Source: an uncultured Lachnospiraceae bacterium
GTDB lineage: Bacteria; Bacillota; Clostridia; Lachnospirales; Lachnospiraceae
Length of the DNA: 36,996 nucleotides
Direction: 5' to 3'
Assembly (NCBI GenBank): GCA_944381535.1
Contig: CALWLN010000098.1
Location: 1-36,996, forward strand
The notes under the pieces are model-generated. The model had not been told where the DNA came from. It made no database searches and worked only from the letters and a program-made list of their open reading frames with translations. Of the stretch, positions 28,919 to 29,598 are shown one piece after another. The stretch's first letter is position 1. Each line of letters starts with the position of its first letter. Position numbers and translations under genes: made by a program.

Positions 28919-28957
28919 ATAGGAAACGTCATAAATGTTTTCTTTATGACGTTTCCT
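28919..28957. repeat. 37-bp perfect palindrome, copy A of a repeated motif
   Basis: AGGAAACGTCATAAA (28921-28935) and TTTATGACGTTTCCT (28943-28957) are perfect 15-bp arms with a 7-nt loop. The first 27 nt (28919-28945) recur exactly at 31312-31338. It is 68-102 bp upstream of the glgX start. It is not followed by a T tract in either direction, so it is not a terminator; an operator or mobile-repeat role is possible. Confidence 0.85.
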
Positions 28958-29110
28958 GCGCCGATTTTTGCTGCGTGTAAACGCAGAATTTTCCTTACAA
29001 AAATCGTGCGCTCTACACTCCGTTTCGGTTGTTGCTAAACAAGCGCCACTGGCGCTTAGCAACCCCCGGAGGGGTTATAGTAAACGGCAAATTTATTTGT
29101 CGTTTACTAT
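28958..29110 (-). repeat. Cluster of four adjacent hairpins in the glgX leader
   Basis: Four inverted repeats follow one another. (a) GCGCCGATTTTTG (28958-28970) with CAAAAATCGTGCGC (28998-29011), enclosing CTGCGT/ACGCAG (28971-28986). (b) GTTGCT..AAGCGCCA with TGGCGCTTAGCAAC (29031-29063). (c) AACCCC/GGGGTT (29061-29076), whose minus-strand loop is UCCG. (d) ATAGTAAACGGCAAA/TTTGTCGTTTACTAT (29077-29110), 15-bp arms with one G-T pair. With the 28921-28957 palindrome this makes a row of stems between a predicted promoter and glgX. It may be a structured 5' leader, a set of operators, or a repeat element. Confidence 0.75.
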
Positions 29111-29137
29111 AGTACCACAATGCGCGCGTTCTTGCAA
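29109..29137 (-). promoter_or_regulatory. Candidate promoter upstream of the hairpin cluster and glgX
   Basis: On the minus strand TTGCAA (29132-29137) and TACTAT (29109-29114) are 17 bp apart, with TGG before the -10 (extended -10). Initiation would fall near 29102, inside palindrome 29077-29110, and give a leader of about 250 nt to glgX. Confidence 0.5.
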
Positions 29138-29166
29138 TCTTCCGGACGCATACGCACGTTTTTTAT

Positions 29167-29542
29167 CCCAAACTGAAATTACTTTTCACAGGGTGGGGAA
29201 ATCAAATAGTTTGTTCACAAAATCAGAAGGATTTTAGGTTTTGTCTGGAGGTCGCCCTGGATGGCACATTTGTTACCGCAGAAACGCTCACGCTTATACA
29301 ATAGAAAGTACGCTTTGCGAACTTTCTATTGTCATGAATCAAGACGCAACGGTACTAGGCTCGCCGCCCTTAAAACGGTCGGTTCGCCAAGTGCCGGCGT
29401 CTTTCCATGGTCTGCTTATAACGAATGTGCCATCCAGGGCTACGTTCCAGTCAAAAACTAAAAAAGCTCAAATCTCCTGTGAAAACAGCTTTATCAGTTG
29501 TATATTTCCCCACCTCGTGAAAAGCAACCCAAACCGAAATTA
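29167..29542. repeat. 343-bp long imperfect palindrome flanked by 15-bp direct repeats
   Basis: Outer arms 29182-29202 and 29504-29524 pair over 21 bp with one mismatch and one G-T pair. Inner arms near 29235-29275 and 29420-29460 include a perfect 17-bp block, GCCCTGGATGGCACATT with its complement; pairing continues weakly inward to about 29287/29397. A central hairpin has perfect 12-bp arms ACAATAGAAAGT (29298-29309) and ACTTTCTATTGT (29321-29332). CCCAAACTGAAATTA (29167-29181) and CCCAAACCGAAATTA (29528-29542) flank the palindrome in direct orientation. No transposase is encoded. It could be a MITE-like element or a large structured RNA. Confidence 0.75.
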
Positions 29543-29573
29543 GGCGGGAACCCATTTTAAGGATTTCCCGCCT
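29542..29573 (-). terminator. Stem-loop downstream of the methyltransferase/small ORF, possible terminator
   Basis: AGGCGGGAA (29542-29550) and TTCCCGCCT (29565-29573) form a perfect 9-bp stem with a 14-nt loop. Read on the minus strand it is followed by AATTTCGGTTTGGGTT, only a poor T tract, so termination of the punA-methyltransferase transcript here is possible but not firm. Confidence 0.4.
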
Positions 29574-29598
29574 GACTTGCTCGGCTAACTTTACAATC

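Follow-up and report, generated by a model that had tools for sequence, protein, structure and literature searches.

A probable miniature IS66-type transposon from Lachnospiraceae with an interior copy of a widespread hairpin fold

Introduction

One published account (PMC3733652) describes REP/BIME repeats as palindromes tagged by GTAG or CGTC, with stem-loops of 20-40 bp, which are dispersed and extragenic, prefer the 3' ends of genes and occur as inverted dimers. Inside a nested palindrome at 29167-29542 of the window (the whole stretch of DNA analyzed, 36,996 nucleotides from an uncultured Lachnospiraceae bacterium) lies a fold, here called X, that is likewise dispersed and extragenic, favors gene 3' ends and forms inverted dimers. 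However, X measures ~105-165 nt and has a three-way junction instead of a 20-40-bp stem-loop, and, unlike REP/BIME of the GTAG type, it shows no association with a Y1 (RAYT) transposase over 397 genomes. A CGTC tag could be seen by eye after the stem in some genomes and is absent at the window copy. In integron attC sites, the fold of the DNA is conserved more than its sequence and landmark bases are left unpaired; X seems alike in both respects, but is dispersed, with no arrays at the loci read. The BOX and RUP repeats of streptococci are structured dispersed repeats too, RUP being moved by an IS transposase, and X resembles them in this general sense.

The palindrome as a whole calls for another comparison. 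MITEs of the IS66 family (IS66 TnpC-type transposase, PF03050) are similar to the window's element and its copies in their terminal inverted repeats, 8-bp target duplication, lack of coding and large number of copies, whereas the related transposase is divergent, falling below the IS66 cut-off of NCBIfam, and the interior of the window's element is a conserved fold. The MITE is another member of a known element type, and X is similar to REP/BIME in position and pairing only. X was not found in the literature searched, which covered few subscription journals. We suggest that the locus is probably a miniature IS66-type transposon with an interior copy of X, a widespread hairpin whose fold is kept mainly as DNA.

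Results

The palindrome is a dispersed non-autonomous element

We confirm that the nested palindrome is real and far beyond chance. The plus-strand fold of 29150-29560 reaches -166 kcal/mol, compared with -97.5 (sd 5.35) for 100 dinucleotide shuffles (z = -12.8), and the minus-strand fold reaches -172.3 kcal/mol (z = -11.4). The outer and inner arms, central stem and 15-bp repeats listed in the original prediction are all present in the sequence (Table 1).

Table 1. Features of the palindrome and of the element that it represents, in window positions
Feature	Position	Strand	Remarks
Whole non-autonomous element (MITE)	29178..29528	.	351 bp in the window copy
Left terminal inverted repeat	29178..29202	+	consensus GTTACTGTTCACGGGGTGGGGAAAT; first base A in the window copy
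Right terminal inverted repeat	29504..29528	-	
Candidate left 8-bp target duplication	29168..29175	+	CCAAACTG; two bases before the element
Candidate right 8-bp target duplication	29529..29536	+	CCAAACCG
Left 15-mer	29167-29181		CCCAAACTGAAATTA
Right 15-mer	29528-29542		CCCAAACCGAAATTA
Outer arms	29179-29202 / 29504-29527		24 nt, 88% complementary
Inner arms (closing stem of X)	29251-29275 (5' half) / 29419-29443 (3' half), halves as on the plus strand	.	25 nt, 92% complementary; compensatory changes between copies
Central hairpin	29298-29313 / 29317-29332		
Nested ~40-bp hairpin repeat	29297..29338	.	core AATAGAAAGTACGCTTTGCGAACTTTCTATT; edges approximate
Fold X, covarying three-way junction in the MITE	29244..29450	-	model R1, 147.9 bits, E 7.6e-35
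Core of X	29314..29420	-	model R2, 57.8 bits, E 2.9e-12

A search for copies elsewhere, by which the prediction was to be judged, found the element at about 40 places in the window's genome (91 HSPs), a lower bound given that 40 of 70 candidates were scored. Many copies lie at contig ends, as is usual for repeats in a short-read assembly. Apart from the window copy, complete copies in the window's genome measure 234-319 bp, and the ends GTTACTGTTCACGGGGTGGGGAAAT are common to complete copies, in inverted orientation. The pattern of these terminal inverted repeats matched 36 times in the window's genome and 79 times in G005, a genome of the same genus, while a reversed-pattern control matched 0 times; the ends were found in 11 of 397 genomes of the family. 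Open reading frames that overlap the element encode only 66, 89 and 100 aa, leaving it with no coding capacity.

Nineteen complete copies from two genomes and species were aligned, nine from the window's genome and ten from G005, with L090 (104 bp between two ends, no duplication) excluded. An exact abutting 8-bp duplication flanks five of the 19 (L003, L007, L025, L030 and L060), and three further copies keep 7 of 8 duplication bases (L036, L049 and L053). L046 has an exact 9-bp duplication, L084 an 8-base duplication with one extra base, and L002 a 7-bp repeat that is seven bases away. No duplication could be recognized in seven of the 19 (L004, L005, L052, L054, L066, L088 and L092, L054 having 5 bp repeated only), which amounts to two of nine copies in the window's genome (L004 and L005) and five of ten in G005.

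In the window copy, the two candidate duplications are alike at 7 of 8 bases (one mismatch) and are offset by two bases. The 15-bp repeats, which were predicted to stand just outside the element, are indeed near-identical, but the element ends at 29178 and 29528, both inside them: the left 15-mer closes with three bases, TTA, that already belong to the element, and the right one opens with the element's last C. They are best read as an 8-bp duplication, CCAAACYG (one mismatch, and on the left two extra bases), together with AAATTA, of which one half comes from the end of the element itself. Their interpretation as a target duplication may hold in part, as 8-bp duplications occur at other copies, but the window's own 15-mers are partly element and any duplication there would be of 8 bp rather than 15. 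A comparison with unoccupied sites, also foreseen at the outset, gave no clean empty site among seven relatives, the neighboring gene being present only in G005 and there beside other genes.

The interpretation of the palindrome as a MITE is supported: the element has terminal inverted repeats, a target duplication of constant length (8 bp) seen at several copies, and multiple dispersed non-coding copies, and IS66-type elements have the same ends. Two such ends bracket IS66-type transposase frames of 592, 581 and 550 aa in G005, G352 and G326. Among these three complete IS66-type elements, the one in G352 is flanked by an exact 8-bp duplication, CAAAGCCC, and no duplication was found at the other two. 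The transposases score 59-83 bits for the Pfam family DDE_Tnp_IS66 (PF03050; cut-off 23.1), while four proteins, one of them from a truncated gene, score 114.6-161.8 bits for transpos_IS66 of NCBIfam and do not reach its cut-off of 180 bits. The sole IS66-like gene with related ends that was seen in the window's genome is truncated (L111). Because the ends are shared with IS66-type transposases and the duplications are of 8 bp, we regard the element, with its ends GTTACTGTTCACGGGG..., as an IS66-type MITE that was most likely mobilized by a transposase acting in trans. When set against five IS66-type loci, the interior proved to have no meaningful similarity to any of them. A different MITE of ~150 bp with nearly the same IS66-type ends (GTTACAGTTCACGGGGCGGGG) occurs at L069 and L082 (G370) and L072 (G309), and L069 is flanked by the exact 8-bp duplication GAATTTTA.

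The central stem of the original prediction is present, but the parental element lacks it. As a repeat in its own right, it is found in 10 of the 35 distinct interiors aligned and absent from the other 25, and its family occupies 14 places in the window's genome (at most 3 mismatches). It interrupts the core of X near the GNRA-like hairpin. The nested hairpin takes the same position in three MITE copies of the window's genome (C98, C25 and C82) and seven of G005, and this shared position in ten copies implies either a single entry followed by spread of the composite, or copying of the hairpin between elements.

Other repeats lie close to the element. The neighboring stem (TATAGTAAACGGCAAATTTATTTGTCGTTTACTATA) at 29060-29115, which probably begins at ~29031, is another dispersed repeat with at least 40 places in the window's genome (40 of 60 candidates scored), and 20 of these 40 places also carry a preceding GCAACCCCCGGAGGGG. 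A perfect 15-bp hairpin at 28921-28957 (AGGAAACGTCATAAA..TTTATGACGTTTCCT) stands upstream of a gene that we take to be glycogen-debranching-like. A terminator-like inverted repeat at 29537-29578 (GGCGGGAA..TTCCCGCC) lies just 3' of a methyltransferase-like gene, beside the right end of the MITE.

X is a covarying fold carried as a passenger

In 25 aligned interiors, the arms of X change together from copy to copy (GGATGGCACA/TGTGCCATCC, GGGTGGCGC/GCGCCACCC and GGACAGCGAT/ATCGCTGTCC). These interiors were built into the covariance model R1, which also matches the plus strand of the window copy with 41 bits. Since R1 gives much weight to structure, any long hairpin might in principle match it, and for this reason the letters of its matches were checked; they share much of CGGYACTTA-RY-GA ... 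GA-RY-TTAGTACCG-CT ... AGCG-NR-AGCG. Among 114 model matches, which were selected without the loop letters and from which one opposite-strand match (L196) was dropped, AGCG..AGCG is present in 109, CTT...GA in 96, GA...TAG in 97, and all together in 75. Loop conservation was judged from these matches because the patterns by which cores were chosen fix the loop letters.

The stems were compared in 63 diverse pattern-chosen cores under a sequence-only alignment, in which 92.4% of 1637 cells are paired compared with 78.1% after shuffling. Changes on both sides occur in 21 of the 26 pairs, covariation is 0.452 versus 0.185 when shuffled, and slid structures are only 26-41% paired. The 63 derive from 172 cores matched by pattern, of which 79 remained after filtering for similarity; 70 of these were considered, and seven were left out for long tips or a shifted 5' side. 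Because the core filter required five of seven pairs in one helix and two of three in the inner triplet (G-T allowed), it raised the paired share of ten of the 26 pairs and favored G-T over A-C. Helix 1 is free of this filter, and there both-sided changes occur in six of six pairs, with 88.4% paired; RNAalifold recovers the same fold unaided. Unfiltered inner triplets of 130 cores are AAT/ATT in 31, GGC/GCC in 25, AGC/GCT in 21, AGT/ACT in 20, AAC/GTT in nine and GGT/ACC in five. The strong covariation answers the check that had been proposed for the stems. X may be pictured as freely changing, complementary stems separated by well-conserved letters in its loops and bulges (CTT..GA / GA..TAG, two bulged bases and AGCG-N-R-AGCG).

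X is a passenger, not part of the transposon proper. The 234-bp copy L036, with its 7 of 8 duplication bases, is without the X core, and X is absent by eye from elements of ~150 bp in G370 and G309 that share these ends. Conversely, two genomes seem, by eye, to have X within palindromic elements whose inverted ends are unrelated, CACGGTAAACGCATGATTTT-like in G230 (L152-L156) and GCGAAACTC-like in G397 (L127 and L162-L166), no duplication being established; in each of these genomes, a short stretch of the arms differs from copy to copy but is mostly complementary. Between copies of one genome, the outer arms of X vary and, by eye, mostly stay matched (G021, G230 and G397).

Wobble pairs in the stems of X

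In RNA, changes from C-G to U-A pass through G-U, so that G-U is common and A-C rare. In the Watson-Crick-majority columns of X, the window's minus strand has 36 G-T and 26 A-C cells and the plus strand 26 and 36; with one G-T-majority column included, the count is 58 and 36. The same procedure applied to SRP RNA from 30 genomes of the same family (30 loci among 119 listed matches) gave 195 G-T and 0 A-C cells, or 43 and 0 in Watson-Crick-majority columns, and X differs from this control with Fisher p of 8e-8 and 2e-11, the control being less diverged than X (86% vs 63% mean column identity). Eight tRNAs, a small control filtered by the tRNA finder, gave 17 and 0.

Other alignments of X differ in detail. 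Those fitted to a model each lean to their own strand, with G-T and A-C at 223 and 87 for the minus-strand model, and for the plus-strand model at 136 and 128 in Watson-Crick-majority columns and 188 and 128 in all. Together, they suggest a modest G-T excess on the minus strand, roughly 1.5 to 1, which is far short of the SRP pattern. Pattern-chosen cores without one column hold 37 and 24. At pair 28-74, 32 of 63 rows have C-A, which would read as G-U if the opposite strand were RNA, and this column points toward the plus strand. An opposite-strand model matches the same copies about equally well (114 vs 115). For the outer arms of X, a Watson-Crick-only alignment that retained 145 of 150 copies yielded 146 G-T and 186 A-C, a count that was set aside because the same method gave only 9:6 on SRP RNA.

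The original prediction had seen in its G-U pairs a weak hint of a plus-strand RNA. A 25-copy within-genus alignment does hold 79 G-T and 11 A-C under the plus-strand structure (41 and 14 under the minus-strand one), but a few fixed columns supply most of the plus-strand G-T cells and over half of those on the minus strand, and across genera the balance is close to even or tips slightly toward the minus strand. The hint thus did not survive the wider comparison, and structured RNA as the main reading is weakened.

We find it doubtful that X is a noncoding RNA, small or mobile regulatory, carried by MITEs, in which G-U would be scarce since both strands are transcribed or perfect helices are needed. 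Stems that covary around conserved loops are what functional RNA typically shows, the AGCG-N-R-AGCG of those 109 of 114 model matches agrees with a minus-strand GNRA tetraloop, and the modest minus-strand G-T excess in the model-fitted alignments points the same way. The loop has a purine in 150 of 150 pattern-matched cores, the AGCG flanks being fixed by the pattern; GNRA-like loops also stabilize DNA hairpins. Against an RNA stand the counts of 36:26 and 26:36 on the two strands, from an alignment not fitted to structure, beside 43:0 in SRP RNA. Moreover, there is no positioned promoter upstream of X, a sigma-70-like site occurring in 40 of 104 stretches compared with 36-40 of 104 in three controls. 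Rfam 15, searched with the window and with 20 and 15 other loci, gave no match to the X region at gathering score and only chance-level ones below it (E 0.4-9.1), in keeping with the earlier remark that the sequence belongs to no named family. The AbiF antitoxin RNA, a lead taken from one publication (PMC12373285), was dropped, as its Rfam family RF03085 did not match. 

With G-T only a little more frequent than A-C in its stems, X fits a structure maintained chiefly as DNA better than an ordinary RNA, and we read it as probably kept mainly at the DNA level, perhaps as the folded minus strand.

Distribution and genomic position of X

R1 matched 136 of the 397 family genomes searched, spanning 120 of 334 genera (E <= 0.001; at most seven candidates per genome scored). 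R2, a model of the core, matches 62 of 392 genomes of the order, all 62 of which belong to the window's own family (E <= 1e-5). In a collection of 84,980 species, X occurs in at least 115 stretches; among the 80 matches listed, titles name Lachnospiraceae or other Clostridia and some unclassified MAGs, and the matches listed include Eisenbergiella tayi DSM 26961, Butyrivibrio sp. WCD3002 and a Robinsoniella MAG. Phages and plasmids gave no match to one X copy, and viral contigs none to one X pattern.

With genes taken as open reading frames of at least 120 aa and loci under 1.3 kb skipped, the 3' end of X faces gene ends 55 times (35 of them within 40 nt) and gene starts 36 times (7), while its 5' end faces gene ends 33 times (12 within 40 nt) and gene starts 37 times (6). 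Two copies occur in 14 of 100 loci, several from the same genome, and are divergent in all 14 (the opposite-strand match of L196 not counted as a pair); in a pattern count over loci, pairs within 800 bp are divergent in seven of seven. Tandem exceptions are two pairs in G673 and one pair 1.1 kb apart among the collection matches listed. X often sits just after stop codons and, when copies are close, usually in divergent pairs, and in its position it behaves like an oversized REP/BIME.

No gene family is convincingly recurrent beside X. Of the two largest clusters (six loci each), one consisted of copies of one genome and the other of a presumably ABC-transporter-like protein, and neither was accepted as a partner gene. 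Among known leaders, an S10-Clostridia leader (L127, 1279-1359) and a T-box leader (L132, 1786-2034) each lie within a few hundred bases of X.

Divergent dimers, a preference for positions after genes and dispersed copies, as in REP according to the same account (PMC3733652), would be expected if X were a mobile unit of single-stranded DNA, akin to REP/IS200-IS605, that a Y1 (HUH) transposase moves in trans and the IS66-type MITE merely captured. We consider this unlikely. Y1_Tnp occurs in 68 of the 136 genomes with X and in 151 of the 261 without (Fisher p = 0.14), with no enrichment; no recurrent gene beside X is convincing, and X is several times longer than REPs. Y1/RAYT was accordingly rejected as the mover of X, there being no association over the 397 genomes.

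Discussion

We propose that X is kept as a cruciform or a folded single strand that is met by a putative structure-reading protein, or is renewed by hairpin-templated repair. One possible form of this idea, which we put forward tentatively, is that X is a folded-DNA element, a three-way junction read by a structure-specific protein, and a MITE passenger that aids spread or tolerance. Such a protein would be common in this bacterial family, it would meet X in single-stranded or cruciform DNA, and several unrelated MITEs could exploit it. The expected signature would be strong covariation with little tolerance of G-U.

It seems improbable that X is functionless, with stems complementary only through correction of imperfect palindromes by template switching and loops alike since the copies spread recently: Watson-Crick pairing with G-T close to A-C is expected from strand-symmetric correction, and arms that vary between copies in one genome yet mostly match by eye agree with it, but bulge and mismatched positions have not been corrected away, and most loop letters persist in model matches from a family with matches in 120 of 334 genera, while stems changed.

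For an X that is kept as folded DNA, the count of wobble pairs offers covariation screens a simple check that parts folded-DNA elements from RNAs; folded-DNA elements would otherwise be filed there as candidate noncoding RNAs. X is carried, frequently in more than one copy, by about one in three genomes searched in a single bacterial family, probably Lachnospiraceae to judge by the names of its matches, and identifying a protein that reads X could expose a new structure-specific DNA-binding or mobility system.
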